Positions 12,831 through 32,048 of a DNA stretch of 64,000 nt are shown piece by piece (positions within the stretch are counted from its first letter, which is position 1; each line of letters starts with the position of its first letter). The notes beneath the pieces were generated by a model that worked only from the letters and a program-made list of their open reading frames with translations, had not been told where the DNA came from and ran no database searches. Both the position numbers and the translations under genes were made by a program. This DNA comes from Fimbriimonadaceae bacterium (GTDB taxonomy: Bacteria > Armatimonadota > Fimbriimonadia > Fimbriimonadales > Fimbriimonadaceae): positions 62,001 to 126,000 of the forward strand of contig JAMLGR010000005.1 in assembly GCA_023957775.1 (NCBI GenBank), given 5' to 3'.

Positions 12831-12880
12831 CCACCGCCCGCGCGCCGCACCCCCACGCAAGGTGCTCGTCGCCCCGGTCT

Positions 12881-13050
12881 GGGAGTGCGCGAGCTTGCTC
12901 ATCGCCCTGGCATGGGAGTGCGCGAGCTTGCTCGTCGCCCTGGCATGGGAGTGCGCGAGCTTGCTCGTCGCCCTGTTCCCGAGCGGCTTGCCGCGAGTCC
13001 GCCGAACGAGTTCGGCGCGTTCAGGGCGTCGCGCAAGCGCGCGCACTCCC
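12881..13050. repeat. REP cluster upstream of the RAYT gene
   Basis: Three direct copies of a unit of about 33 bp beginning GGGAGTGCGCGAGCTTGCTC (at 12881, 12914 and 12947) followed by an inverted copy ending CGCGCACTCCC at 13050. The hairpin stem differs between forward (GAGC/GCTC) and inverted (GCGC/GCGC) copies in a compensatory way, so structure is conserved. The remainder of 12819-13098 holds only the promoters of the two divergent genes. Confidence 0.9.
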
Positions 13051-13675: not shown

Positions 13676-13925
13676 GGGAGTGCGCGAGCTTGCTCGTCGC
13701 CCTGCTGCCGAGCGGCTCGCTGCGAGTCCGCCGAACGAGTTCGGCGCGTTCAGGGCGTCGCGCAAGCGCGCGCACTCCCACGCGTCGGCTTGCCGCGAGT
13801 CCGCCGAACAAGTTCGGCTCGTTCAGGGCGTCGCGCAAGCGCGCGCACTCCCACGCGTCGGCTTGCCGCGAGTCCGCCGAACGAGTTCGGCGCGTTCAGG
13901 GCGTCGCGCAAGCGCGCGCACTCCC
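13676..13925. repeat. REP cluster downstream of the RAYT gene
   Basis: One forward unit starting GGGAGTGCGCGAGC at 13676, then three inverted units of about 72 bp, each ending CGCGCACTCCC and separated by ACGCGTCGG. Each inverted unit also contains a second palindrome, GCCGAACGAGTTCGGC (one copy is GCCGAACAAGTTCGGC). The array stops 12 nt before the GH38 stop codon. Confidence 0.92.
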
Positions 13926-13937
13926 ACGCTCTCACAG

Positions 13938-16539: not shown

Positions 16540-19500
16540 ATGGCTAAGCGGGGTACGCCGCTTCGAATCGAATCCGCGTTCGTCAAAGGTTTTCACCCAT
16601 CGGGGCTTCTTGAGGCCCGTTTCGATCGACGAGCGTTTCTCGCCGGCGCCGCCGGCGCCGCGATGGGGGCCTCGGCCGTCGCTCAAGCCGCGAAGGGTGG
16701 CGGAAAGATCAGCGTCGCGCGCACGCTCGCGCCGGACGACACGCTGCGCAAAGCGGTCGTCCGGTGCGGCGACCTCCGCTGGACCATCGACACGGCCCTG
16801 TTCGAAGGCAAGCCTCGCCTGACCGTCGACGAAAAAGACGGCCGGACCCGCGTGACTCTCACCGGAGCGAAGCTTCCCGGCACGGCCTTCCAGCTCGCGT
16901 TCGAGGCCGAGATCCGGCCGAGCCTCTCGGGCCCCGTCCTGTCCGTCGGCTTCCAAGACACGGGCGTCGCCGGCGCGACCTGGGCCGCGGAGGCGCCGTT
17001 TGCCGCCTGGCTCCGCGGCGAGGCGCCCCTGGAGGCCTCGCTCACGCGACGCGAGATCCAACTCCTCACGGGCGGCAGCGCGAAGCCGCTGGCCCCGCAG
17101 GCGATCATCGTCGTGGCGGGCGGAGGGACCCTCCGTTTCGAACCCCAGAACGGCTTCGTCGTCGACGCTCCGACTCGCGTCCTCGCGGACGGACGGACGC
17201 TGCCCCTCGCCGCACTGGCCCTGAGCCCGATGCCCAAGGGCGCCCCGACGATGGTCTCGCGCGCGGACGCTCCCTTCACGGTGCTCTCGGGGCCGGGAGG
17301 CGCGGATTGCCTCGTGCCCGTGTCTCTGGGGGACCAAGCCGTCTGGTCGATCGATGGAACGATCGGCGACCTCCAGGACCTCCGCCTCGAGCTGCACGGC
17401 AAGCGCGCAGGGCTCCTGGTCTCCGGCAACGGCGGTTGCACGCTCACCGCCTCGGGCTTGGCCCTCGGCTTGGTGCGGACGCGGTTCGCAAAACTCCTGG
17501 GCGCCGAGGCCGACCACCACGTGCTGGCCGCGGACCTGGCGAAGGAAGGCGCGTGGCTCGACCTCGGCGGATGCGGTCTCGAGCTGGGACCGGGCGCCGA
17601 CGGGCTCCTCGCCCAGATCGGACCCGACGGACAGCCCCAACTGGAGTTCGACGGTTCCATGCGACGGTTCGCCGCAGGCTTCGACGACGCGATCGTCGGC
17701 GTGCGCGGAGGCGAGCTGGTCCCGCTCGAGTTCGAGGTGGGGGCCCAGCAGCGCCAGACTCCCCCGCCCACGCGGCAAGTGCCGCCCACGCGACAGGTGC
17801 CCACCCGCACGCAGACGCCCAGCCGCGTGCAGATGCGGCCCGGGCTCCTGCAGGCCCTGTTGCGCCTGCCGTTCCGCATCGACGTCGTGCGGCGCGAGGA
17901 CATGCTCGCGCTCTCGTTCGAGTTCATCAACCTCTCGCTGCAGGTCGGCTCGGGGGCTCCGCGCCTCGTGCGGGCCAATGCGAGCAAGCCCGCCTACCTC
18001 GTCGTCCACTTCCCCTCGCAGTCGCTCGCGGAGCGGACCTTCGAGGAGAACGACCAAGGCGGCCCGGTGCTGGGCGACATCCGCCCTGTTCCCTCGCGGC
18101 TATCGGGTCCGACGCGCCTCGTGTTCTTCGTGCCGACCACGGTGCCGTACATCGTGTTCAACCTGAGCGGCGAGGACGGCAAGGGCAAGAACGGGCTGCT
18201 CGACTGGTCGAAGCTGAGGCCGAACATCATCCCCACGGCCGTGTCGCCGCTGGGCTCGAACCCGCGGCTGAGGATCGACCCGGGATTCATCAACCCGCTG
18301 GAACGGGTGAAAATCGGCGGCCTGTCCGCCACGCCCCCTCCCGGCAACCTCCGCGCCGTGCCGCCCCCCGACGAGACCTCCGGCATCGTCGCGTCGATCG
18401 GCGGGCTGCTGGCCCGACGCGGACAGGACCGCCGCCTCGCCACGCCGCCGCCGCAGGACCGCCGGCTCATCCTTCCGAACCAGCGGACCATCCAGAAGAT
18501 CGAGGACCAACTGGGGCAGATCGCGCCCAACCTCGACCCCACCCTCATTCTCAAGCTCATCCCCGTCTCGCGGATGCCGATCGACGGCTCGCCGTACTAC
18601 ACCGCCATCGAAATGCCCGCGCGGCTCTACCTTTCGCCCAACGAGCTGTCCGGCTGGGCGCACCGCGCCGACGTGTTCGCTCCCGGTGGCCGCGCGGAGC
18701 TGTGGCACACGCGCCTCGGCGTCCAGCAGGCCAACGGGGTGAAGGAAGGCCCCACGACCGTGCGCGCCGTGGATGCCGTGGACTACGACGCGGACATGGG
18801 CGAGATCATCATGCCCGGCGAGATGAACCAGGCGATGCTGCGCGAGGACCGGGTCGGACTCGTCGACAACATGACCCACCGCGAACTCGCCAAGGACTCC
18901 AGGCCGTTCCCCGTCGAGCGCCTGATGCTGACCCCGCTCGGCGGCTACCTGAAGGGCGAGGGCACGTGGGACGAGGTCTGGCAGCGCGAGCAGCGCAAGT
19001 ACGTGGACTCGTTCATCATGGCGTGGGCGCACAAGGCGACCCTCGGCAGAGACCACTACGTCAAGGTCGTCAAGCGCGGCTACCTCTATCCCACGGGCCA
19101 CCCCGCCGCGTTGGTCTTCGTCAGCGAACGCAAAGTCCAGCAGACGCCCCAAGGGCCCGTGATCGCCTTCACCCGCAAGAAGGTGTACGCGATCGTTAGG
19201 GTGCCTAAGCTTTCGTACAACGCGAACCAGCAACGCGAACTCGGATTCCGGACGCTCGAATGCCTCACGCTCGAAACGCCCCCGCTCACGATCAGCGCGG
19301 GCGCGATTCCGGGCACCACGGCTTTCTGGATGCGCACGTCGGGCGGGCCGTTCCTGTTCCACATGCGCGGCGAGGACGTCGAGGGGCGCCCCGTCGAGTG
19401 GACGATGCCGATGATCTTCGTGCGCAGCGTGGATCCCAACCTCCCGAACGCCGCGCAGACGTACCAGAACAACTACAACGCCGCGCACCTGCACTACGTC

Positions 19501-21264
19501 AACGGCCCGGACGCCCAGCCGACGCGCCGCCACAAGACCAACGGCCAGAAGGCGGCGTTCGCACCGGACGACACCGGCAAGGAGTCCACCGCGTTCCCGC
19601 TCGAGGAGCTGTTCTTCGAGGGCAAGTGGATCGGAGAGACCGGACAGAAGGACTTCGCAAAGTTCCAGTGCATCCTGCACACCGCGAAGGTGAAGGTCCA
19701 GGCGATGCAGTACATGGCGGGGGCGGACAACGGCCCCGTCGAAGTGGCGATCCCCACGGTGTACAAGCAGGCGGGTTTCGGCGGGGCCAACGCCGCCAAG
19801 GCGTTCTTCGAAGTGCCGTCCGCAAAGGAGATCACCGCCGGCAGCGACACGACGAAGACGGGCGGACTGGTCAACCTCGACCAGAAGATCAGCGCGTTCA
19901 CCAAGGGCAAGGGGCCGGTCGGCGGGGCGTTGCAGCAGGTGCTCGGGGGCAACACGCGCCCCGAGGACTTCATGCCCGACACGCTCAAGATTCTGGGCGC
20001 GGTGAGTCTGTGGAAGCTTCTTCCCGACACGATTCCGATCACCCCGGGCGACCCCAACGACCCCAACACCCTGAAGAGCCCCCGGCTCGAAGTGAAGTTC
20101 GACAAGGACGGCAACGGCGTGCCGATCCGGGCGAAGGTCGAGTTCCGCTGGTATCCGGTGGTCAACAGTTGGCCGGCGGACAAGCCGCTGCTGATCATCC
20201 CGCCGTGGAGCGCTTCGAACCCGGCGCTGAGTCTCGTGGGAGACGTAAGCGTCGAACTCAAGAGCGGGAACAGCAACTACTCGTTCGTCGGCAGCTTCAA
20301 GAAGTTCCGCGTGGACTGCATCGCCCCGGTGATGTCGTTCATCTACCTCGACTTCGACGAGCTGAAGTTCGAGGCGAAAGCGGGCAGCAGCCCCGCGATC
20401 ACCCTCAAGCCGGACTTCCCGAAGACCACCTTCACGGGGCCGCTCACGTTCGTGCAGAAGCTGCAGGACTTGATCAGCGACGTGATCGGCATTGAGCCCG
20501 ACCCCTACCTGCTCGCGAGCATGGACCCGATGCCGCGGCGGCTCGACGGCTTCGAGTTCAAGCCGTTCTTCGACCTCCAGGCGGGGGTCATCCGCGTCGG
20601 GTTCAAGTTGGGTGTGCCGACCATCGGCGTCGGCGTGCTCACGATCATGAACATCTCGCTGCTGGCCGAGGTGCGGTTGCCGCTCATCGGCTCGGCCCTG
20701 CGCGTCCGGTTCGCGTTCTGCGAGCGGGAGAGCCCGTTCCGCCTGACGGTCATGGGCATCGGCGGCGGCGGGTTCATGGGCATCGAGCTTGGGCCGGAGG
20801 ACGTGGAGCTGCTCGAAGCGTCCTTCGAGTTCGGCGCGGCGATCGCCCTCGACATCGGCGTGGCCAGCGGCAGCATCTCGCTGATGGCCGGCATCTACTA
20901 CAAGCTCGAGCAGAAGAAGTCCACGCTCACCGGCTACGTGCGGCTCGTGGGCAAACTCAGCGTGCTGGGGTTGGTGCGGATCAGCATCGAGTTCTATCTC
21001 GAGCTCACGTACGAGTTCGACACGGATCGGTGCTTCGGCACGGCGACGGTCACCGTGGAGATCGAGGTGCTGTTCTTCAGCTTCGACGTCTCGATGACCG
21101 TGCAGAAGCAGTTCGCGGGCGGCAAGTCCGGAAGCGCGCCGGAACCGCTCTACGCATCGATGGATCCCGAGGCCTTGCCGCAGGCCAGCGCATCGCAAAT
21201 GACTTTCACTCAGGCCGTCAGCAAGTCTGAGTGGGAAACGATCTACACCGGAGCATTCGCATGA
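16540..21264 (+). CDS. Giant Tat-exported protein of unknown function, 1574 aa
   Basis: ATG 16540 follows AAAGGAG with 6-nt spacing. A long n-region leads to a twin-arginine motif (FDRRAFLAG, arginines near 30-31) and a hydrophobic core (AGAAGAAMGASAVAQAA), so Tat export is likely. Residues 60-400 look beta-rich; a Pro-rich linker with repeated PTRQVP follows near 405-430. A central domain carries VERLMLTPLGGYL, WAHKATLGRDHYVKVVKRGY and YPTGHPAALVFVSERKVQ. The last 330 residues are strikingly hydrophobic and beta-prone (GIGGGGFMGIELGPEDVE, LMAGIYYKLEQKKSTLTGYV, VEIEVLFFSFDVSMTVQKQF). I recall uncharacterised large proteins with similar segments in other bacteria but can name no family. It overlaps the next giant gene by 4 nt (ATGA). 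Confidence 0.85.
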   Translation: MAKRGTPLRIESAFVKGFHPSGLLEARFDRRAFLAGAAGAAMGASAVAQAAKGGGKISVARTLAPDDTLRKAVVRCGDLRWTIDTALFEGKPRLTVDEKDGRTRVTLTGAKLPGTAFQLAFEAEIRPSLSGPVLSVGFQDTGVAGATWAAEAPFAAWLRGEAPLEASLTRREIQLLTGGSAKPLAPQAIIVVAGGGTLRFEPQNGFVVDAPTRVLADGRTLPLAALALSPMPKGAPTMVSRADAPFTVLSGPGGADCLVPVSLGDQAVWSIDGTIGDLQDLRLELHGKRAGLLVSGNGGCTLTASGLALGLVRTRFAKLLGAEADHHVLAADLAKEGAWLDLGGCGLELGPGADGLLAQIGPDGQPQLEFDGSMRRFAAGFDDAIVGVRGGELVPLEFEVGAQQRQTPPPTRQVPPTRQVPTRTQTPSRVQMRPGLLQALLRLPFRIDVVRREDMLALSFEFINLSLQVGSGAPRLVRANASKPAYLVVHFPSQSLAERTFEENDQGGPVLGDIRPVPSRLSGPTRLVFFVPTTVPYIVFNLSGEDGKGKNGLLDWSKLRPNIIPTAVSPLGSNPRLRIDPGFINPLERVKIGGLSATPPPGNLRAVPPPDETSGIVASIGGLLARRGQDRRLATPPPQDRRLILPNQRTIQKIEDQLGQIAPNLDPTLILKLIPVSRMPIDGSPYYTAIEMPARLYLSPNELSGWAHRADVFAPGGRAELWHTRLGVQQANGVKEGPTTVRAVDAVDYDADMGEIIMPGEMNQAMLREDRVGLVDNMTHRELAKDSRPFPVERLMLTPLGGYLKGEGTWDEVWQREQRKYVDSFIMAWAHKATLGRDHYVKVVKRGYLYPTGHPAALVFVSERKVQQTPQGPVIAFTRKKVYAIVRVPKLSYNANQQRELGFRTLECLTLETPPLTISAGAIPGTTAFWMRTSGGPFLFHMRGEDVEGRPVEWTMPMIFVRSVDPNLPNAAQTYQNNYNAAHLHYVNGPDAQPTRRHKTNGQKAAFAPDDTGKESTAFPLEELFFEGKWIGETGQKDFAKFQCILHTAKVKVQAMQYMAGADNGPVEVAIPTVYKQAGFGGANAAKAFFEVPSAKEITAGSDTTKTGGLVNLDQKISAFTKGKGPVGGALQQVLGGNTRPEDFMPDTLKILGAVSLWKLLPDTIPITPGDPNDPNTLKSPRLEVKFDKDGNGVPIRAKVEFRWYPVVNSWPADKPLLIIPPWSASNPALSLVGDVSVELKSGNSNYSFVGSFKKFRVDCIAPVMSFIYLDFDELKFEAKAGSSPAITLKPDFPKTTFTGPLTFVQKLQDLISDVIGIEPDPYLLASMDPMPRRLDGFEFKPFFDLQAGVIRVGFKLGVPTIGVGVLTIMNISLLAEVRLPLIGSALRVRFAFCERESPFRLTVMGIGGGGFMGIELGPEDVELLEASFEFGAAIALDIGVASGSISLMAGIYYKLEQKKSTLTGYVRLVGKLSVLGLVRISIEFYLELTYEFDTDRCFGTATVTVEIEVLFFSFDVSMTVQKQFAGGKSGSAPEPLYASMDPEALPQASASQMTFTQAVSKSEWETIYTGAFA

Positions 21265-24200
21265 GGCTCGAAGCCATCTGGACCGCCCTTCCCGTCGCCG
21301 TCAGCGGCAACACGCTGAAGCTGTCGGTCTTCGTCTCGCACCGTTTGTACGGTCCTCCCGCAACGACTCTGGGCGCGGGCGGGTTCACCGACGTCCTCGG
21401 ATGGGCGGGCAAGAACGTCAAGTTCAACGTCCGCTTCGGCGGAGGCCCTCCCGTGCCCGCGACCGTGGTTTCGGCGATCAACGCGCAACTGCACGCCGCC
21501 GCGTTTCCGGGCACGACACCCGTGCGCGGGAATGCGCCCACCGATCCGCCCCAGCGCTTCCAGCGGATGGCTCAGCGCGAGATGCAGTCGTACTCGGCCG
21601 CGGCCCTGGGCATCTTGCTGCGCGGCACGTACCAGGGGGCCGCGACCCTCAGCCCCACCGATCGCATCGATGCCGACCAGATCGTCAACACGACGCTCGC
21701 GTGGGCCGATCCGCTGCGCCCAAGGCGGCCCTACACCGAGGCGCAGCTCCTGCCCACGCAGTACGTGAACCTCGGCTCGGCGAGGATCAAGAAGGGCGAC
21801 CGGCGCTCGTTCGCCGCCGTGTGGGCCGAGGCCGAGAAGCGCGAGGCCGACTCCATGCGCAAGGAGATGGACTCCGCGCTGAAGGCGTATCGCAACTCGG
21901 GCGGCGCCGCGCCTCCCAACACCCCGGCGGGTTGGCGTTTGCTGGCCTACGAGTGCAAGCGGTTCTTCGAGTCGATGGCCCCGACCAAGAACCACCCGAA
22001 GTACGGCGTGGTCCACGCGGCGGTCAACGTGCCCGAACCCAGTTTCGACTACCACGACGCGCAGTCGCTCGTGGCCAACCACCCGTCGCTCATGCGCGCG
22101 CTGGGATTCGTGTTCGATCTCGAGGTGCCGCTGCCCGCGGGGTTGCCCGCCAGTGGCGAAGTGCGCGTGGAGCCCGTCTACACCAAGGCCCCGGACACGG
22201 TGGACCGCACGCCGAAGACGGCCTACCAGTTCGTGCCGGGCCAACTGTTCCTGCCCAAGCCCAAGGCCGGCTCCGAGCTGGGCGTCGGGTATCTGAAGAT
22301 CGGCGGGGCGCCTTACTTCACCGCGCAGTACGACATCGATTCCGGCGCGCTGAAGCTGATGGACTTCGTGCAGAACATGCGCAACGCGCTGCAGGTGCGA
22401 AAGCAGGTGGAGCCCACGAATCCGCCCCGCAAGCAGCAGCTCCTGCCCGGAACCGAGACGCTCGATCTCGACAACTCGGAGATCGGGCGCAGCAAGGTCA
22501 CGCTTCCCGCCCTCCGCACGACCGGCATCTCGCTGTACCGGAACGAGCGGGCGCAGAAGATCAAAGCCGTGTTCCAAAAGGCGATGGCGATGCAGGCCGA
22601 CCTGGCGCCCGCGACCAAGGCGTTCGATTACGACGACGTCGTCCGTGGATACCGGGTGGACGTGTTCGACCGAGGGGCTTGGCGGCCCCTGATGGGGAGG
22701 GTTGGCGGCTACAACCTCAAGGGCATCCAAGTGCCCGCGGCCGGGCAGAACGGCGCGCCGTTCGACGAGGCGTGGATGTCCTCGGCGATGACCTCTTCGC
22801 CGAGCAAGCCGGGCGATCCTCCCGCGACGGGGCCGGTGAAGGTCCACGAAGCGGTTTGGAGCTGGCACGGTTGGAGCTTGGCGGTCGAACGCCCCGGCCA
22901 GGCGATGGACGATCTCGGAAAGCCCACCCAGGGCTCGAACAAGCTCGATCCCAACTTCCCGGTCGCGATGAACTTCCAGGTGCCCCCGGGGTCGTTGCCG
23001 ACCTTGCGGTTCGGGCACACGTACAAGATGCGCGCGCGCGCCGTCGATCTGGCGGGCAACAGCCTGCCACCCAACGCGCCGACGCTGGGCGGACCCGGGT
23101 TCGAAACGCCCGAGGCTCCCTACCTCCGGTTCGATCCGGTGCTTTCCCCGCAACTGGTCAACTACAAGGTCCCGGGGAACGCCGATCCGGTCAAGGACAC
23201 CACGGCGGGCGCGGCGGAGAACCAGATCGTCATCCGCAAGTTCAAGGGCGATCCCACGATTCGGCCCAGCCGCCGCGAGGTGTTCCCGCCTTACGGCTCG
23301 GTCTCGCTTTCGGAAACGCACGGCATGTTCGACCTGCCCAACGGCAAGATGGACCCCGCCGCCTATCCCAACGTCATCGTGCCGCGCGAAGGCAAATCCG
23401 CGCCGCCCGAGGTGACGGGCTCGATGAGCGACGTGCCGTATCTGCCGGACCCGCTCTCGTTCGGCTACTGCGTCCAGTTCACGCCGCTGCCGTTCCCCAA
23501 CGCGCCGACGGGCGTGAAGTTCGCACTCGGGAAGTTCCCCAGCGCGGGTTGGCCGAAGATCGGGACGGGCACGCTGCAGATCGTCTCGAACCCGGGTCCC
23601 GCCTCGCCCGCCCCGGTGGTCTCTGGAGGGAACGTCACGCTTGGGTTGCGGCCCGGCGAAGTGGTCAAGGCGCTCGTCAGTTCCTCGCTGGGGAACCAGA
23701 GCGCGCTGAATCTGATGGGGCTTTGGAACTGGCTGCCGCCGGCCACCCAGGCCTCCCACCAGGACGCCGCCCTGCAGGGCCGCATGTGGCTGATGACGCC
23801 CTACCGGGAGGTGACGCTGGTTCACGCGGTCCAGATCCCGGAGGCGCCCGCCCAGATCCTGTTCTTCAAGGCTTACCGTTCGCCGGGCGACACGTCCGTG
23901 CGCATCGGCGACAACGAGCAGACCGCGATGGTGACCCACGCGTGGAGCACGGTCGAGGTCGAGGCGATGGCCCAGTGGGAGGACGAGCTCGACCTCATCG
24001 AGGAGCCCATCCGCACGACGCTGAAGCGCAAGGTGGACATGACGGCGTTCAAAGTGGGCATCAACCGCGATGAATTCCTGCACCGGTTCGTGGAGCGGCA
24101 CGAGATCGGCGACACGAAGTACCACAACGTCACCTACACGTTGCGCGCGGCCAGCCGCTTCCGCGACTACTTTCCCTCGCAGATCACGGAGTTCACGCTG

Positions 24201-25400
24201 GACACGGTGGGCGACATTCCCAAGACGGTGCTGGGGCGCAACCTGCCGGCGCCGGTGAAGGGGACGCTGAACTTCGACGCGGTCAGCACGGCGCGGCCGG
24301 ACGTGCCTTTGATCGAGTACATCGTGCCGACGTTCGGCTGGTCGCGGCCTTCGGTGCCGACGGGCCAGCGCTCGATTCGCGACGGCGGGGGGCTGCGCAT
24401 CTACCTGCGCCGGCCGTGGTTCTCGTCGGGCAACGGCGAGCGGCTGGCGATCGTGCTGCCGTCCGGGGCGTACGAGGGTGCGAAGGCGCCCGCGGGCATG
24501 CCGAACGCGGCGGAGTACCCCTACGTGACGCTGTTCGGCGCCGATCCGACGAACAAGAGCGGCAACGTGCACGCGCGGCCGCTGTCGAACCACTTCCCGG
24601 GGGCGGCGCCCGCCGGGAAGTACCTGAAGCTCGAGGAGAACCCCGCGTTGAACGTGGGAGCGGTCTCGGTGCCGGTGCAGTTCGACGCGGAGCGCCAGCT
24701 TTGGTTTGCGGACGTGCAGATCGACGCGGGGAACGCGGCGTACATGCCGTTCGTGCGGCTCGCGCTCGCGCGCTACCAGGAGTTCTCGGTGCCGGGTCTG
24801 GAGTTGAGCCGCGTGGCGGTCGCCGACTTCATGCAGCTCGCGCCGGATCGGTCCGCGACCGTGACGTACCTGTCCGACACGCGGTTCAAGGTCGTGGTGA
24901 GCGGCGTCGGCACGGCGGACGGGAGCCCTCCCGGCCGGGTCATCGTGGGGACGGTGGAAGTGTCCCCGGGAACGTACGACGGCAAGGCCGTGACGGACGA
25001 GGAGACGGGCTGGCGTCCGGTGGTGGTGGGCGGGAAGGACCTGGAGAAGACGATTCCGCTGACCCCGGCGCTCAACCGCGTGATCATCGGCCGTCCGCCT
25101 CCCGAGGAGGAAGGGGTCGAGGAGCAGCCGCTCGAGGCCGGGCAGGGTCGTGTGGCGGTTCCGCCTCCCAATCAAGGACGGGTGATCAACCCCCAGATCC
25201 GGCCGACGGTGCAGGAGGGTCCCGGCGAGTTCACGTTGCCCGGTCAGAGAGGTGCGGCGAAGTACCGACTGGTGCTGCGCGAGTACGAGGTGTATCTCAG
25301 CGACTTCCCGGAGCCGGTCATCGAGATGCCCCCGACGACCGCCGCCCCGCCCCCCACGCGCGGCCGCTTGGTGTACATGGACGTGATCCCCTTGGCCTAG
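21261..25400 (+). CDS. Giant protein of unknown function, 1379 aa, partner of the preceding gene
   Basis: ATG 21261 overlaps the preceding stop (ATGA), indicating translational coupling. There is no signal peptide or TM helix. Segments that look conserved include FDYHDAQSLVANHPSLMRAL with GFVFDLEVPLP (residues 255-290), GHTYKMRARAVDLAGNSLPP (about 590), a run SETHGMFDLPNGKMDP, and a C-terminal YRLVLREYEVYLSDFPE. It appears to be a multidomain, mostly beta, structural-type protein with fibronectin/immunoglobulin-like pieces, but no catalytic motif is evident. The first partner has a Tat signal and this one does not, so this subunit may stay cytoplasmic, use another route or be carried with its partner. 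Function unknown. The gene ends 28 nt before tRNA-Leu. Confidence 0.85.
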   Translation: MRLEAIWTALPVAVSGNTLKLSVFVSHRLYGPPATTLGAGGFTDVLGWAGKNVKFNVRFGGGPPVPATVVSAINAQLHAAAFPGTTPVRGNAPTDPPQRFQRMAQREMQSYSAAALGILLRGTYQGAATLSPTDRIDADQIVNTTLAWADPLRPRRPYTEAQLLPTQYVNLGSARIKKGDRRSFAAVWAEAEKREADSMRKEMDSALKAYRNSGGAAPPNTPAGWRLLAYECKRFFESMAPTKNHPKYGVVHAAVNVPEPSFDYHDAQSLVANHPSLMRALGFVFDLEVPLPAGLPASGEVRVEPVYTKAPDTVDRTPKTAYQFVPGQLFLPKPKAGSELGVGYLKIGGAPYFTAQYDIDSGALKLMDFVQNMRNALQVRKQVEPTNPPRKQQLLPGTETLDLDNSEIGRSKVTLPALRTTGISLYRNERAQKIKAVFQKAMAMQADLAPATKAFDYDDVVRGYRVDVFDRGAWRPLMGRVGGYNLKGIQVPAAGQNGAPFDEAWMSSAMTSSPSKPGDPPATGPVKVHEAVWSWHGWSLAVERPGQAMDDLGKPTQGSNKLDPNFPVAMNFQVPPGSLPTLRFGHTYKMRARAVDLAGNSLPPNAPTLGGPGFETPEAPYLRFDPVLSPQLVNYKVPGNADPVKDTTAGAAENQIVIRKFKGDPTIRPSRREVFPPYGSVSLSETHGMFDLPNGKMDPAAYPNVIVPREGKSAPPEVTGSMSDVPYLPDPLSFGYCVQFTPLPFPNAPTGVKFALGKFPSAGWPKIGTGTLQIVSNPGPASPAPVVSGGNVTLGLRPGEVVKALVSSSLGNQSALNLMGLWNWLPPATQASHQDAALQGRMWLMTPYREVTLVHAVQIPEAPAQILFFKAYRSPGDTSVRIGDNEQTAMVTHAWSTVEVEAMAQWEDELDLIEEPIRTTLKRKVDMTAFKVGINRDEFLHRFVERHEIGDTKYHNVTYTLRAASRFRDYFPSQITEFTLDTVGDIPKTVLGRNLPAPVKGTLNFDAVSTARPDVPLIEYIVPTFGWSRPSVPTGQRSIRDGGGLRIYLRRPWFSSGNGERLAIVLPSGAYEGAKAPAGMPNAAEYPYVTLFGADPTNKSGNVHARPLSNHFPGAAPAGKYLKLEENPALNVGAVSVPVQFDAERQLWFADVQIDAGNAAYMPFVRLALARYQEFSVPGLELSRVAVADFMQLAPDRSATVTYLSDTRFKVVVSGVGTADGSPPGRVIVGTVEVSPGTYDGKAVTDEETGWRPVVVGGKDLEKTIPLTPALNRVIIGRPPPEEEGVEEQPLEAGQGRVAVPPPNQGRVINPQIRPTVQEGPGEFTLPGQRGAAKYRLVLREYEVYLSDFPEPVIEMPPTTAAPPPTRGRLVYMDVIPLA

Positions 25401-25428: not shown

Positions 25429-25514
25429 GCGCGGGTGGTGAAATTGGTAGACACGCTACCTTGAGGTGGTAGTGCCCACAAAGCGTGAAGGTTCGAGTCC
25501 TTTCCCGCGCACCA
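25429..25514 (+). tRNA. tRNA-Leu(GAG)
   Basis: 86 nt with acceptor stem GCGCGGG/CCCGCGC, class II variable arm, T-loop GTTCGAGTC and an encoded CCA end. The anticodon loop CTTGAGG gives GAG, reading CUC/CUU leucine codons. Its 3' end (25502-25514) is duplicated at 32049-32061, so it is the attachment site of the island that follows. Confidence 0.97.
25502..25514 (+). other. attL-like site (tRNA 3' end, TTCCCGCGCACCA)
   Basis: Thirteen bases of the tRNA-Leu 3' end that recur exactly and in the same orientation at 32049-32061, bounding 6.5 kb of more AT-rich DNA. Confidence 0.75.
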
Positions 25515-25683
25515 TTTTTTTCGCTAGGTTCAATGGAACCTGCAATTGTGGGGGATGTGGTCCACTCTTCTGGGCTACAACGCGTAGACATCTTAACCCG
25601 GGGAGCGCTCCTCCACCGGAGCTGCTGTTCTGCTTCCAGAACGGTCGTCTTGTCCTTGACCGTCCATTGGCTAGGGTAGAGCG
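25515..25683. other. Left end of island, no gene
   Basis: Contains a T-run right after the tRNA, a small hairpin AGGTTCAATGGAACCT, and a candidate promoter (TTGTCC, 16 nt, TAGGGT at 25672-25677, then 6 nt) for the next gene. Confidence 0.4.
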
Positions 25684-25953
25684 ATGAGCGAGTTGCAGTG
25701 GACCTTTCTCTTCCTAGGGCTGTTGGCCATTCTCGCTCAACGATCAGGGGCTGAGGGGGCCGGTTGGCGAGCTTGGCTCGGACTGCCATCGTTCCTTTCC
25801 GCCGCCGGGCTCGTCACGCTGCTACTCGACGTGACCGGCTGGTCTCCGAATTCTCTTTGGATCGCCGGGCCCCCAATTGCGCTGGCAGCTCTTGCCGACG
25901 CGGGTGCACGTCACGGCAAGTACGGGCATCGAGAGTCGCCCGGTCAGCCCTAG
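25684..25953 (+). CDS. Small membrane protein, 89 aa (island)
   Basis: ATG 25684 with TAGGGT exactly 6 nt upstream, the leaderless spacing seen elsewhere in the window. Up to three hydrophobic segments are visible: LQWTFLFLGLLAILA near the N-terminus, SFLSAAGLVTLLLDV in the middle and SLWIAGPPIALAALA after a short loop, followed by a charged tail. No family recognised. It is the first gene of the island and convergent with the minus-strand membrane genes. Confidence 0.55.
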   Translation: MSELQWTFLFLGLLAILAQRSGAEGAGWRAWLGLPSFLSAAGLVTLLLDVTGWSPNSLWIAGPPIALAALADAGARHGKYGHRESPGQP

Positions 25954-25993
25954 CCGGCAGGAGTCGATTGGGCTGAACCTGCTTGCTAGCCCT

Positions 25994-26527
25994 TCAGCCG
26001 GATCCAGAGCGCTTCTTGGCGACCCGGAATGCCAAAGGCATATAGGTCCAAGAGATCAGTAGCGCAACCAACAGAGAGACCGGGAAGCCCAGCAAGCAAG
26101 AGATCACCCATCTTGGTGCTAGGAGGATTGTCGCGCCAGTGGCAAGGTAGAGCACGGCCCAGATAACGCGGAGAAGGCCCCAGAACCATCTGAAGTACCT
26201 CGTGAAGAACGCTCCCGAAGGATCTTCCTCCCCAGCCGATCGCATTGAAAACGTCAGCTTGGCTGCTTTGAGAGATCTCAGGAACATGTATGCGGAGAGA
26301 GCGGATAATGAGAGCCGTAGGACAGCCCAAACCCAGTATGAAGTGCCACGAACCTCAGCACCAAGTGCCCCGATGAAGAGAAAGTCGTGAGGCGATTGCA
26401 TGGTGATGAGGAGAGCCCCGACTATCACAAGAAGACCCACGTTAGCGGTGCACCCTAGGATGACCTTCAGTATCCACCGTAACTTCGGACTCCTCGGGGC
26501 CGAGCCGACATTACGATGGATCCTCAA
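25994..26527 (-). CDS. Membrane protein, 177 aa (island)
   Basis: Predicted multi-pass protein: hydrophobic segments at LGCTANVGLLVIVGALLIT, YWVWAVLRLSLSALSAYMFL, LLRVIWAVLYLATGATILLA and LGFPVSLLVALLISWTYM, with a basic cytoplasmic tail (AFRVAKKRSGSG). Start proposed as TTG 26527, which overlaps the stop of the upstream gene as TTGA, the same arrangement as the RND adaptor/pump pair; the frame extends further 5' without a better signal. No homologue recognised. Confidence 0.6.
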   Translation of the reverse strand: MRIHRNVGSAPRSPKLRWILKVILGCTANVGLLVIVGALLITMQSPHDFLFIGALGAEVRGTSYWVWAVLRLSLSALSAYMFLRSLKAAKLTFSMRSAGEEDPSGAFFTRYFRWFWGLLRVIWAVLYLATGATILLAPRWVISCLLGFPVSLLVALLISWTYMPLAFRVAKKRSGSG

Positions 26528-26967
26528 CAGAATCGCCCTGCCTTGGAGCCCCCCAGCGCAAACCAGATCAACCAGGTGTGTAGGATCGCAAGGGGCACCG
26601 CCAAGAAACTCCCAAAGAGATACGCCCAAATCAAACCAGTGTAGAGAGTGCTCAGAACATCATAGTAGTAATCTGGGTACCAACGGTGAACAAGAGAGTC
26701 GAAGAGTGCGTAGCCCAGTGTGCCAACCATCGGAAGCACAAAGGCAAAAAAGAGACTTGGGACCTTCGCTCTCCACCATGCAATCAAGACGTATACAGAG
26801 CCGACGAAGGCTGAGCCAACCAAATAGCTTGCAAGTGTCTCAAGGGTGCCATGAAGACCTATCCAATACGGAGGCGTTATCAGCATCCACAATGGCGACA
26901 TGACAACGCTCACGCCCAATACCGCAACCACTCTCAATATTGGTATCGCTGGACGAGATGGAGCCAT
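26524..26967 (-). CDS. Membrane protein, 147 aa (island)
   Basis: Begins MAPSRPAIPILRVVAVLG and has about four TM segments (VVAVLGVSVVMSPLWMLI, LASYLVGSAFVGSVYVLIAW, LFFAFVLPMVGTLGYALF, LIWAYLFGSFLAVPLAIL). A Tyr/Asp-rich loop (HRWYPDYYYDVLSTLYTG) lies between TM3 and TM4. Its 3' end overlaps the next minus-strand gene by 4 nt. Function unknown; co-directional with the anchored protein upstream. Confidence 0.65.
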   Translation of the reverse strand: MAPSRPAIPILRVVAVLGVSVVMSPLWMLITPPYWIGLHGTLETLASYLVGSAFVGSVYVLIAWWRAKVPSLFFAFVLPMVGTLGYALFDSLVHRWYPDYYYDVLSTLYTGLIWAYLFGSFLAVPLAILHTWLIWFALGGSKAGRFC

Positions 26968-26982
26968 GACATGTACCGGTGC

Positions 26983-27840
26983 TCACCTTTGGGACTTCTG
27001 GGCAAACGCAGCTGCAATTGCTTCTAAGCCCCTTCCAAACGGAATCGTCATGTCGTCTCCTCCCCTTGACTTCATGACCAGATTCCTCGAGCCATCGATC
27101 GCCACTTCAAGATCGCCGTAGGCATTCTCCATCCTAATCACGCCTGACAAGTTCGCGTAGGCCAACTTCCATGCGGAACCCATGGAGGCAAACACCAGGA
27201 CAAAATCACTTTCTCGTTCACTAGACCGCAACACGCGCACAACGCCTAGCTGAGTGCCTTTCCATCGGGTAAGCGCTGGAAGGCTACTTCCAAGAGACCT
27301 GGTCCAGGCCTGCAAGTGAGAAAGGGAATCGAAAGACGACGGCAGGACGACACTACTGGATGGGCCTTCCATTCTGCTTGGAAGCGAAGGGTAGCAGTAG
27401 GTTCCGGTGGTTAAGGCCCCTGGGACTCCTCCCATTTGGTCCAATCGCTCAAAGCGGAGGTCTCCATAACTGATGACATCACCATTCTCGTGAATGAAGA
27501 GGCTTGAGGAGCTGTCATCGGAGAGTCGTGGGAAGACCCTTATCTTTGTGAACGCGCCGGACTTGAACTTACACTCAATGTCATCGGAGCCCATGAACCC
27601 GCGGTAGAGGAAGTCGCTACTCTTACCTACGGCCACGCCGTCAATAGTGAACTCTGCTGAATCCGGCTTTGCGTAGATGCCATAGGTGTGCATTGTTAGG
27701 GCCAACCCAAAGTAAGGCGTCGGAATTAAGATGGCGAAGGCAAGTAGGGTGACAACAGCTTTGACCCAGAAGCGTTTCCAGAGTGCAGAGGTAACTGTGA
27801 GAATCGCTGCCCTTCTGGGAAATCTACGAGCGCGAGCCAT
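26983..27840 (-). CDS. Membrane-anchored hypothetical protein, 285 aa (island)
   Basis: ATG 27840 follows AAGGAG with about 10-nt spacing. A basic N-terminus (MARARRFPRRAA) precedes one TM helix (VKAVVTLLAFAILIPTPYFGLAL, residues about 26-48). A beta-rich extracytoplasmic domain of about 235 residues follows, with EFTIDGVAVGKSSDFLYRGF and YGDLEVAIDGSRNLVMKS. No catalytic motif. It is first of three co-directional genes with 15-nt and -4-nt junctions, so probably a small operon of envelope proteins within the island. Confidence 0.65.
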   Translation of the reverse strand: MARARRFPRRAAILTVTSALWKRFWVKAVVTLLAFAILIPTPYFGLALTMHTYGIYAKPDSAEFTIDGVAVGKSSDFLYRGFMGSDDIECKFKSGAFTKIRVFPRLSDDSSSSLFIHENGDVISYGDLRFERLDQMGGVPGALTTGTYCYPSLPSRMEGPSSSVVLPSSFDSLSHLQAWTRSLGSSLPALTRWKGTQLGVVRVLRSSERESDFVLVFASMGSAWKLAYANLSGVIRMENAYGDLEVAIDGSRNLVMKSRGGDDMTIPFGRGLEAIAAAFAQKSQR

Positions 27841-28115
27841 TAAGTCATCACTCCTTCGGTGAAGTCGCGAGCGGCAGTGTCAAGGGCATTGGCGTTGCCG
27901 CAATCCTTGGGGAGACAGCTTGAACTCGCGCCACACATGCCTTGCGAAGAATTCCATCGTTGTTCCGGGTAGACCCTCCAGCCGGTTCAAGGCGAAACGA
28001 TCGGCGAAGGCCCTCCGACGCATTGTACGACGTAACTCCGCTGAATGAGTGGTGCGTCCCTATGGCCGTATGCTGGAGATATGGGGCCGTTTGAATTCCA
28101 GGACCGAGGACGCTT
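27841..28115. other. Divergent intergenic region in island
   Basis: 275 nt between the minus-strand membrane operon and the 1236-aa gene. No gene or clear hairpin seen; it should hold both promoters. Confidence 0.4.
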
Positions 28116-31100
28116 TTGGAGGAGTCCTTACGTGTCGTCCGCGGGACACCGTATCCTAACGTTGTGGAAGGTGCGCATCAAATCTCAGCAGATCGGCTCA
28201 AAACTTGGGCCAACGAGCAAGCAGCTGCCGGAGAGTTGCCTTGGCTCCTCAGAAGCCTCATCCGTTTGACGGTCGGACCACAAGCGAAAATCGAGTTCAA
28301 CACGGGAACTGGGGTGTATTCAGACGGCTTTGACGGGGTTGTTCAAGCCTCTGGCAGCAGCTATGTGCCGGATGGCGACTCAGTGTGGGAAGTCTCCGTT
28401 CGAAAGGACGTTCAAGCCAAAGCTAACGATGATTTCAAGCGGCGAAGTTTCGAAGAATCCCGTCTTGACCGCTCGTTGGTCACTTACGTTGGCGTTAGCC
28501 TCCGAAGGTTCAGTGAGAGCTCGGACACGGCCAAGGCATCCTGGGCAGAGGACAGACGTTCGGAGGGGATCTGGCGTGATGTTGTCTTTTATGACCTTGA
28601 GGATATCTCGGAGTGGCTTGACCAACATGCTGTCCTTGGATTTCAGGTGGCCATCAAGCTCAAACAGTCTTCATTGATTCGCTCTTTGGGAGACTGGTGG
28701 GAGAACTGGGTTGCGCCCTGTCAGTTGAGGATCGGCAATGACTGGTTGGTGTCTGGTCGTGATCAGGAAGCCAAGCAGTTCGGGGAACTGATTCAGCTCG
28801 AGCGCAAATTCCTGACCATAAGCGGTTGTAGCCAGACAGATGCGCTGGCATTCGCCTACAGCGCCGTTCAGTCTCTGCCGCCGGAGGTCGCTGATTGGCT
28901 CATGTGCCGTTCTCTCTATATCCCATCTCTGGCAGCGTTCGAGCAGGTCACGCCCTTTGTCCGAAATGCGATTCTCATCCCGATGGAGGGATTAGATGAT
29001 CATCACATTGGCCTAGTCAGTCCATCGAACAAGGTTCTCTATTGTGGACATCCCACGAAGTACGAGGGAGGGATACACCTCCCTAGGGTAAGAGTGAGCA
29101 TTCTCCATGAACGTATGTGCCGGGATGGCTTGGACTCTGACGTAGCGTCGCGTGCGGCAAGAGCTGCTCGCTCCGGTGTCGAACTGATGAGGAAGGAGCT
29201 GGGAGCTCCCCCCTCCCCTTTCGACCTGTCCGACCTTGACAAGTCGGATCACGCAATCATCTCGGCAGCCCTGTTAGTCAATAGATGGAGCGAAGAGAAC
29301 GTCCACGACGTCTCGCTTGTCGCCGAACTCGCTGGTACGGGACCGGACGAAGTTGAACGAACGCTTGCGAGAGTTTCTAGGCGGCAGCCGCCTCTGATTC
29401 GCAAATCTGGTCATGTGTGGTTCCTCACCGATGACGGGCTCGCATGGGATCAGTTGGGCCATCTAGTCACTAGCTCTGTGCTCAGCCCGTTCTTGCTTCG
29501 GGCACCCGGGATTCTCGGCGAAAGTGATCCGTCCTTCGACCTCGATCCTTCTGAGCGGTGGAAGGCGAGGCTTCTTGGAAAGAGTCCGGTCTACAGTTCA
29601 CATGTAAAGGTTGGCCTTGCGCGGACATTCGCAGTTCTGTCCGAACACGATTCTCCCGTCGGGTCTTACGCCTCAGGTCATGAGATATCTGATCGCCTCG
29701 TTGATCAATGTGTGAGTGGGGCGGGCGAAAAAGAGTGGTTCGCCTTGGCTCCGTCATTGTCACTTTTGGCGGAAGCCTCGCCGGATCACTTTCTCGCTGC
29801 GCTCGAGGGGGATCTCAACCGGAGTGATCCTGCGGTGCTCGGCCTGTTCGCAACGGAAACGCAGCCGCTCATGGGTGGAAGCCGCCATTCCGAGTTATTG
29901 TGGTCCCTAGAACGGTTGTGTTGGAGCAAGCGGTTTCTCAAGCGGGCTAGTAAGTGTCTGTGCGCATTACACGAGAGAGGATTCGGCAATGGAACTGGAA
30001 ACAACCCCTTAGCCAGCCTTCGCCAAGTGTATGTGCCGTGGCACCCCTGTACCGAAGCCGACGCAGAAGAACGCATGGCCGTTCTTGACTCGCTGAGACA
30101 ATCACATCCGGTTGCATCGTGGGATCTGCTCGGTCAGCTCATGCCACGAGACCACGATGTAGCCCACCCCACGAGTCGCCCGGAGTTTCGCGAATGGGGT
30201 GGTGAACGATCTGAGCAGTTTCAGACTCAAGTAAAGCGCTGTTACGATACGGTGCTTGGCTGGATGGTCGGAGACGCGGGTGTGAATGCAGGGCGGCTGG
30301 CAAGCCTAGCAAGCGCATTCGCGGGCTACCCCGACGAGTGGCTGAACTTGATTCTCGAACGCCTGGGAGATGTGGTCGAAGACATTCGAGAAGAGCAGGA
30401 GCGGTTCGTAATTTGGGATGGGATGAGCCGTGTGCTACGAAGGCACCGGAGCCATCCTGAAGCCGAATGGGCTATGACCGCCGAGCAATGCGATAGATAT
30501 GAGGATGTGATGACTAGCTTCGAACCGCTAGATGTCGCATTGCGGAGCCTTTGGCTCTTTCAACCGTGGGTCGACCTAGGCGTGAAGGAGGACGACTACG
30601 ACCAGCGTCATGCGTTGATTGACGAGGCGCGAAATGAGGCTCTCAAGGCAATTCTGAGGGAATCAGGAACTTTAGGCATCTTTGATCTAGCCCAGCGAGC
30701 AGAGCTCCCGGGTGTAGTGGGGGAGATCGCTGCAAAGTTGGGTATTTGGACCGGAGAGGATGAAACGCAGTTCCTGCTGAGCCACCTAGGAAGCGAGGAA
30801 CGCTGGGGCCGGCAGCTAGCCATGGGCTACGCTGCACAACACTTCGCCGACGACGGTCCAGCCTGGATACTGGATCTGCTTGGCGGACCTGAGCCTTGGA
30901 GCGCAGAGCAGAGGGCAGAACTCCTCTTTGTCCTACCCAACGATCGGAATACGTGGAAACACCTAGACACCGAGCCAGAACAGGTTTCGAAGTTGTACTG
31001 GAGTCGAATCAACGTGTGGACGACTCGTGCCTACTCCGAGGACGATTACATGCTGTTCGCTCGGCGGATGATTGATGCCGGGCGCGAAGCTGATCTCTTG

Positions 31101-31826
31101 CACCTCTTGTCCTCGCTTTCATATTCTGGCAGTTCCGCTGAGCGCGAACTCCTTATGGTCGACGCTTTGAATGCGTTGTCGACGCGAGAGTCCTTTGAGC
31201 CTGGCGAACTCTCAACGTTAGGGAGCGAAGTTCGGCAAGCCCTCGAAGTGCTTTCTGGGTCCGGCCGAATCCAGGACACTGAACTTGCCCGACTGGAGTT
31301 CTACTTCATGCCCCTGGTTTGGTTTGAGTACCGTCCGAGAGGCCTTGGGAGGGCACTGGCGAGCGATCCGAAGTTCTTCGTAGAGCTCTTGAGCAAGATC
31401 TACCCAACTGATGGTGAATCTGATGGAAACGAAACGGAAGCTCGTCGGTCATTGGCAGAGACAGCCTACAAAGTCCTTCACGCCTGGGACGTCTTGCCTG
31501 GTAGCGATGAGGGGCGGATCAACCTCCGCATGCTGCTTGATTGGCTGTCGGCCGCCCGGTCGATTGCGGCTGAGAAGGGACTCCTGCCGAGAGCAGATGC
31601 ATTTATCGGTGATCTGCTCGCAAAATCTCAACCTGACGAGGACGGTATCTGGCCACCCAGCGAAGTATGCCAAGCAATCGAGATCACCGCTTCCGACGAT
31701 CTGGATCTGCATGTCAGAATCGGCCGTCACAATGCCCGAGGTGTTACATCTCGAGGAGTCGACGATGGCGGGAGGTTAGAGCGGACAGAAGAAGCTCGAT
31801 ACCGATCACTGCTTGGCGAGGTCTGA
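28116..31826 (+). CDS. 1236-aa putative defence protein: nuclease-like N-terminus, degenerate P-loop, long helical C-terminus
   Basis: Start at TTG 28116: GAGGA lies 5 nt upstream and an in-frame stop at 28092 excludes anything longer. Residues about 55-105 read GFDGVVQASGSSYVPDGDS, then VWEVSVRKDVQAKANDDFKR. This D...WE-x-S...K-A-x-x-D pattern resembles PD-(D/E)xK-type domains I associate with phage-defence proteins. At about residues 228-250, FLTISGCSQTDALAFAYSAV sits where an STAND NTPase would have a Walker A; here the GK-S/T is missing (GCSQTDAL), so it is degenerate. Residues 400-1236 are mostly helical, Trp-rich and probably repeat-like (sensor region). No TM. It is alone on its strand in the tRNA-Leu island. 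A defence role is inference only. Confidence 0.75.
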   Translation: MEESLRVVRGTPYPNVVEGAHQISADRLKTWANEQAAAGELPWLLRSLIRLTVGPQAKIEFNTGTGVYSDGFDGVVQASGSSYVPDGDSVWEVSVRKDVQAKANDDFKRRSFEESRLDRSLVTYVGVSLRRFSESSDTAKASWAEDRRSEGIWRDVVFYDLEDISEWLDQHAVLGFQVAIKLKQSSLIRSLGDWWENWVAPCQLRIGNDWLVSGRDQEAKQFGELIQLERKFLTISGCSQTDALAFAYSAVQSLPPEVADWLMCRSLYIPSLAAFEQVTPFVRNAILIPMEGLDDHHIGLVSPSNKVLYCGHPTKYEGGIHLPRVRVSILHERMCRDGLDSDVASRAARAARSGVELMRKELGAPPSPFDLSDLDKSDHAIISAALLVNRWSEENVHDVSLVAELAGTGPDEVERTLARVSRRQPPLIRKSGHVWFLTDDGLAWDQLGHLVTSSVLSPFLLRAPGILGESDPSFDLDPSERWKARLLGKSPVYSSHVKVGLARTFAVLSEHDSPVGSYASGHEISDRLVDQCVSGAGEKEWFALAPSLSLLAEASPDHFLAALEGDLNRSDPAVLGLFATETQPLMGGSRHSELLWSLERLCWSKRFLKRASKCLCALHERGFGNGTGNNPLASLRQVYVPWHPCTEADAEERMAVLDSLRQSHPVASWDLLGQLMPRDHDVAHPTSRPEFREWGGERSEQFQTQVKRCYDTVLGWMVGDAGVNAGRLASLASAFAGYPDEWLNLILERLGDVVEDIREEQERFVIWDGMSRVLRRHRSHPEAEWAMTAEQCDRYEDVMTSFEPLDVALRSLWLFQPWVDLGVKEDDYDQRHALIDEARNEALKAILRESGTLGIFDLAQRAELPGVVGEIAAKLGIWTGEDETQFLLSHLGSEERWGRQLAMGYAAQHFADDGPAWILDLLGGPEPWSAEQRAELLFVLPNDRNTWKHLDTEPEQVSKLYWSRINVWTTRAYSEDDYMLFARRMIDAGREADLLHLLSSLSYSGSSAERELLMVDALNALSTRESFEPGELSTLGSEVRQALEVLSGSGRIQDTELARLEFYFMPLVWFEYRPRGLGRALASDPKFFVELLSKIYPTDGESDGNETEARRSLAETAYKVLHAWDVLPGSDEGRINLRMLLDWLSAARSIAAEKGLLPRADAFIGDLLAKSQPDEDGIWPPSEVCQAIEITASDDLDLHVRIGRHNARGVTSRGVDDGGRLERTEEARYRSLLGEV

Positions 31827-32048
31827 TTTCACCAGAACGGCACGCATGTTAGTGGCACTAGCTGAGGAGTTCAGCTCGGAAGCCAGCGCCACCGATCAGA
31901 GCGCTGACATGGAGCAAGATCTGTGATCCAAGACCATCTGGACCAGCCGCGCCACTTTGTGGGCCAAATCACCCCACTGAACCCAAGGCCCCCCGGTCCA
32001 GGACCGAGTCTCTACCTGTATGGAGACTCAAACAGGTAGAAGCCTTGA
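31827..32048. other. Right end of island, no gene
   Basis: 222 nt downstream of the 1236-aa gene. No coding signal. The last 55 nt are rich in inverted repeats (see 32006-32039). Confidence 0.4.
32006..32039. repeat. Two overlapping, mutually exclusive inverted repeats next to attR
   Basis: GAGTCTC (32006-32012) pairs with GAGACTC (32023-32029), and CTACCTGT (32012-32019) pairs with ACAGGTAG (32032-32039). The two hairpins cannot form together. GGTCCAGGACC (31995-32005) lies immediately to the left. Confidence 0.7.

Follow-up and report, generated by a model that had tools for sequence, protein, structure and literature searches.

We analyzed a stretch of 64,000 nucleotides from a Fimbriimonadaceae bacterium (phylum Armatimonadota; hereafter the window), in which two very large genes, P1 and P2, lie directly behind one another on the forward strand. 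The two genes constitute a real unit that is inherited together, and the best-supported interpretation is an obligate two-subunit complex encoded by one operon. In the explanation that we favor, with a probability of roughly 0.4, P1 and P2 would be the subunits of a β-rich complex that is exported by twin-arginine translocation (Tat), with P2 as the hitchhiker of P1, and that takes on a binding or scaffold role. P1 runs from the ATG at 16540 to the stop at 21264 (4725 bp, 1574 amino acids (aa), 170 kDa) and P2 from the ATG at 21261 to the stop at 25400 (4140 bp, 1379 aa, 150 kDa): The original prediction of two genes of 4.7 and 4.1 kb that overlap by ATGA is borne out by these coordinates. The G+C content at third codon positions (GC3) is 0.91 in both frames and equals that of the core genes of the window, which marks both as real genes; a recent acquisition of the pair in the present genome is for its part unsupported by this composition. 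No mutual relationship between P1 and P2 is detectable (hhalign probability 0.2%). The features of the pair are the following:

16540..21264, + strand: P1, first gene of the pair; 21 of the 291 genomes searched in the phylum encode a relative
16540..16689, + strand: Tat signal peptide of P1, RRAFLAGAAGA..., with putative AxA cleavage after residue 50
16690..17769, + strand: N-terminal region of P1, absent from relatives whose P1 begins directly at the core
17760..17812, + strand: proline-rich PTRQVP linker with an 18-bp tandem repeat (approximate ends)
17890..20079, + strand: conserved core of P1 with the motifs RPDDLL..., ELWHTRL, GRDHYV, FGHRA and TERK and many near-invariant H, R, D and W
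20554..21117, + strand: C-terminal amphipathic β-meander of P1, residues 1339–1526, strands mostly of 9–17 residues
21261..21264, + strand: ATGA stop/start overlap between P1 and P2
21261..25400, + strand: P2, second gene of the pair, without signal peptide
21279..21293, + strand: conserved N-terminal motif WTALP of P2, residues 7–11
23136..25397, + strand: predicted fibronectin-III/immunoglobulin (Ig)-like modules of P2, residues ~626–1379

Co-inheritance and transfer of the pair

When the two proteins were searched separately in 291 genomes of the phylum, P1 with its own profile, P2 was found in 22 and P1 in 21, every one of them among the 22 with P2; in the remaining genome P2 begins at the contig end. 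Both genes are likewise present in 95 of 103 fetched loci (nine of the 103 being duplicates from two collections), always in the same orientation and with P1 upstream, and in the other eight P2 is located at the contig start. The profile search that had been proposed as a check of co-occurrence thus revealed no exception where the contig extends far enough. The gap between the genes has a median of 14 bp and is at most 30 bp in 55 of the 67 measurable cases, eight of which are overlaps. Moreover, the distances among P1 and among P2 sequences are correlated over 57 loci (r = 0.84; the maximum of 1000 permutations was 0.28), and the two trees have 31 of 54 splits in common. A scan of a one-genome-per-species collection yielded 410 stretches encoding P2 relatives, and at least 16 named phyla are represented in the best 80 of them. 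The co-inheritance of more than 400 relatives across such large phylogenetic distances implies that selection maintains these 9 kb as a unit for some purpose. In four loci, a Rhizobium plasmid and three Armatimonadota metagenome-assembled genomes (MAGs) (L003, L020, L021 and L023), the P1 sequence is distributed over two reading frames, which may be due to assembly errors, to decay or to true split forms.

The pair has a scattered distribution across the phylum (22 of 291 genomes), and phyla are mixed on some branches of the P2 tree, which indicates that the pair has moved between them: A Geobacter copy is placed among Chlorobiota, and copies from Nitrospira, Synechococcus and a Syntrophaceae bacterium are grouped, both with strong (starred) support; Methylobacter, an Acidobacteriota MAG and Rhodoblastus form a further group with starred support. 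Errors in MAG binning could account for single mixed-phylum cases but hardly for those containing isolates. Relatives are also encoded by replicons from Cupriavidus, Rhizobium, Diaphorobacter and Streptomyces in a plasmid collection, and occur in Actinomycetota and Chloroflexota. In the family of the window, the pair and its counterparts in three other genomes make up a single branch (support 99 in both trees) at 33–39% identity; the neighboring GH38-like gene, by comparison, reaches 50–55% with the best full-length matches from the same family.

Export signal and predicted folds

The N-terminus of P1 is a Tat signal, FDRRAFLAGAAGAAMGASAVAQA-A, which ends in ...RFDRRAFLAGAAGAAMGASAVAQA-A. The segment RRAFLAGAAGAAMGASAVAQA comprises an N-terminal twin-arginine motif, an uncharged hydrophobic region and an AxA site, and the genome encodes TatC (PF00902, E 5.9e-55); the clear Tat signal ascribed to P1 in the original prediction was thereby confirmed. 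P2 had been called signal-less, and this holds as well: In nearly all relatives the motif W-T-x-L-P is found about 5–10 residues from the start, and in P2 itself it begins at residue 7, which leaves no room for a signal. According to the explanation that we favor, folding and assembly of P1 and P2 would take place in the cytoplasm with the aid of translational coupling. P1 with its Tat signal would then take P2, which lacks one, along through the Tat pore, in the present organism as well as in about half of the relatives. Natural hitchhiking of this kind is established for HybOC and PaoABC (PMC4273604). Alternatively, P2 may stay in the cytoplasm.

Among intact P1 open reading frames (ORFs), 35 of 71 contain the Tat pattern versus 39 of 487 neighboring genes (8%); 34 of the 35 remain once one false hit is excluded, and three further signals were recognized by eye. 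The remaining intact P1s start straight at the RPDDLL core or with a signal-less N-terminal region, and the Tat state requires at least four changes on the P1 tree. These two observations would also be expected if the pair were a cytoplasmic structural or binding complex to which the signal was added later in some lineages. We consider this improbable: The signal is retained in the family of the window and in nearly all copies from Armatimonadota, Aminicenantes and Kapabacteria, from which we conclude that export matters there, and fibronectin-III modules such as those predicted for P2 are typical of extracytoplasmic proteins.

In P1, the proposed PTRQVP linker is present as PPPTRQVPPTRQVPTRTQTP, with the 18-bp tandem repeat at 17764–17801. 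The AlphaFold model of residues 445–1574 (mean pLDDT, the predicted local distance difference test, 77.7) and the sequence together delineate a meander of roughly ten, markedly alternating strands; one of its faces is hydrophobic and the other polar. P1 had been described as having a very hydrophobic, β-prone C-terminal third; the C-terminal 370 residues are indeed its most hydrophobic part (grand average of hydropathy 0.26–0.31) and its strands are long, but the sheet is amphipathic and not uniformly hydrophobic. Structurally, the C-terminus matches outer-membrane barrels (OmpG: Z 13.7 over 173 residues, root-mean-square deviation (rmsd) 3.7), whereby the structure matches of P1 span only model residues 883–1093 and other parts of the protein were barely probed. 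A fold search in BFVD gave weak rows resembling tail fibres and autotransporters, which we took as reflecting the common β-meander.

This resemblance raises the question of whether P1 might be an outer-membrane β-barrel with which diderm hosts present P2 at the cell surface. The present host is a diderm, as evident from the genes for TamB, BamA/Omp85, OmpH and LpxC, all within the same window. However, relatives are also found in actinomycetes and Chloroflexota, in which outer membranes are rare or absent. Instead of the Sec signal and the C-terminal aromatic β-signal of such barrels, P1 has a Tat signal and a tail of about 48 residues beyond the last strand that ends in ...YTGAFA, and its hydrophobic face is unusually conserved, all of which makes barrel display very unlikely. 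The last point also bears on a membrane-active effector, secreted or delivered, whose P1 sheet would insert as a β-barrel or lipid-binding surface while P2 solubilizes or aims it. Such an effector would be in keeping with the polar/hydrophobic alternation in strands of 9–17 residues, the OmpG match, the sporadic, transferred distribution and a Tle1-like phospholipase directly downstream of the pair in one locus. Yet conservation is higher on the hydrophobic face than on the polar one (entropy 1.33 vs 1.81, p = 0.0007), a pattern more consistent with burial in protein than with lipid contact, and no immunity-like gene or secretion system was found to be conserved beside the pair; we therefore regard an effector as quite unlikely.

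On the basis of the model, we read the meander as a probably buried sheet with a putative functional polar patch rather than as a lipid-facing barrel. P2, a different region of P1 or a hydrophobic ligand would cover the conserved hydrophobic face of the sheet, and the residues E1426, E1430, Y1453, Y1466, R1468, S1482 and E1484, which are highly conserved on the polar face, would form a site. For P2, the AlphaFold model of residues 185–1379 (mean pLDDT 79.9) matches chains of fibronectin-III modules (VIA-align; best Z 9.3 across several modules; rmsd ~3 for single modules), so that P2 may constitute an arm of fibronectin-III/Ig-like modules.

Possible roles of the complex

Neither P1 nor P2 has a usable match in Pfam or NCBIfam; PHROGs gave nothing but one chance-level match, and in PADLOC, and hence among its anti-phage defence models, nothing matched up to E = 1. 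Relatives from other branches gave chance matches only in Pfam and NCBIfam, as did PDB sequences searched with phmmer and with profiles built from 63 and 71 sequences, and no relatives were found in phage records. The statement that the pair contains no recognisable enzymatic motif stands with respect to these libraries, and a match to a characterized system, the outcome that was to speak against the original prediction, was looked for and not found. Literature on the motif, DUF6603 and giant Tat proteins contained nothing on the pair, subscription literature lying outside the scope. Judged by sequence, the pair is undescribed at the family level, with neither protein in a named family of the libraries searched, while its folds and presumed export route are of already known kinds. 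Two further candidates were rejected: For a phage or phage-tail-like injection structure, there was no phage match and no tail gene among the listed families of the neighbors; for two-partner secretion (TpsA/TpsB), neither protein has a Pfam match to a POTRA/Omp85-type barrel or a TPS domain.

The strongest rival to a binding or scaffold role is an enzyme. In the P1 core, H723, R725, H831, R837, D838, H854, E863 and R864 are near-invariant, which keeps catalysis in consideration, and P2 contains conserved His and Asp. The pair might accordingly form an enzyme complex that contains a cofactor or metal, belongs to an undescribed family and uses Tat because its cofactor is loaded in the cytoplasm. 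The HybOC hydrogenase is a cofactor enzyme. The same applies to PaoABC, likewise a natural Tat hitchhiker (PMC4273604), and both precedents favor this alternative. We nevertheless deem it unlikely, given the lack of Pfam, NCBIfam and PDB-sequence matches for either protein or their relatives, the absence of a conserved maturation or biosynthesis gene among the neighbors and the small number of cysteines (nine in P1, two in P2).

Binding or scaffolding is the role that we prefer. Such an assembly fits the predicted β-rich, modular build; the surface assembly originally envisaged is possible. In this explanation, the two-gene operon would be a self-contained, horizontally transferable unit encoding both subunits of a complex that acts outside the cytoplasm. 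Several points weigh against it. About half of the intact P1 relatives have neither a Tat nor another recognized export signal, so that export cannot be essential to the action of the pair; the argument from Tat export is consequently weaker than the original prediction assumed, and a surface location is not general. Together, P1 and P2 amount to about 320 kDa, far above the 135 kDa of PaoABC: Tat cargoes measure 20–70 Å and PaoABC is counted among the largest (PMC4273604), so that a complex of this size would be an exceptional cargo. Mirror trees also arise through simple linkage without contact, and it is from sequences that we infer a physical interaction between P1 and P2. Finally, the idea of a polar patch is derived from conserved residues in a model of medium confidence (mean pLDDT 78). 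It seems improbable that a transferable system of at least 16 phyla sends a complex of more than 300 kDa as a whole through Tat in its Tat-bearing half and has an activity outside the known classes.

Despite the wide spread of the pair, neither protein is named in any curated library that we searched. Should the pair be exported as a single folded body, it would test the size limit of Tat; if an enzyme or effector, it would be a widespread one that is invisible to annotation. As an accessory-free two-gene cassette, it can easily be deleted or expressed.

Gene neighborhood and known systems

No third conserved gene emerged when the neighbors were clustered by single linkage or when 59 of them were scanned against Pfam, where no family occurred in more than two; recurrent neighbor families are lineage-specific only. 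In six loci from Kapabacteria, Balneolales and a Chlorobiota MAG (L065, L089, L090, L104, L107 and L109), a β-rich outer-membrane-like protein of ~640–710 aa and a secreted protein, with RCC1-like repeats in two cases, are encoded near the pair. Three actinomycetes encode related proteins of ~390–436 aa directly after P2 (L079:13829–15016, L108:13985–15145 and L118:12823–14130), which are secreted at least in L118, whose copy has no Pfam match. The Tle1-like phospholipase (PF09994, 4.4e-65) is that of a Comamonadaceae MAG (L076:13228–15600) and starts 41 bp after P2, and in Rhodoblastus acidophilus (L116) a 3010-aa ORF follows the pair on the opposite strand.

In the window itself, positions 25600–32000, just downstream of tRNA-Leu(GAG) at 25429–25514, have a GC content of ~55% versus 65% and hold two ORFs, 26983–27840 (− strand) and 28116–31826 (+ strand, 1236 aa), with a GC3 of 0.59 versus ~0.9. 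The 1236-aa ORF has no Pfam match and neither ORF a PADLOC match; no repeat of the tRNA gene of at least 14 bases was found elsewhere in the window. This stretch looks like a foreign island next to a tRNA gene. Upstream of the pair, tandem repeats are located at the start of a solute-binding-protein gene (12863–12975, 3.4 copies of a 33-bp unit) and adjoining the GH38-like gene (13713–13929, 3.0 copies of a 73-bp unit).

With regard to known systems, the predicted β-sandwich chain of P2 may resemble multi-module fibronectin-III/Ig proteins including alpha-2-macroglobulin and complement, and rows of low TM-score from Foldseek include complement C4b and E. coli alpha-2-macroglobulin. P2 differs from these proteins: It has no Pfam match, neither of its cysteines lies in a CxEQ thioester motif, and its model contains no helical toroid corresponding to the thioester domain. 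The C-terminus of P1 shares with OmpG, FhaC and AlgE the antiparallel meander of long alternating strands, but differs in that P1 relatives have a Tat signal or none instead of a Sec signal, that the hydrophobic face is conserved, that the meander is not at the extreme C-terminus and that it occurs in phyla without outer membranes. The Tat hitchhikers HybOC and PaoABC differ from the pair, which has no sequence match, no known cofactor, a size of ~320 instead of 135 kDa and signal-less forms in about half of its relatives; what they have in common with it is the organization as an operon in which one partner carries the twin-arginine signal and the other or others do not.

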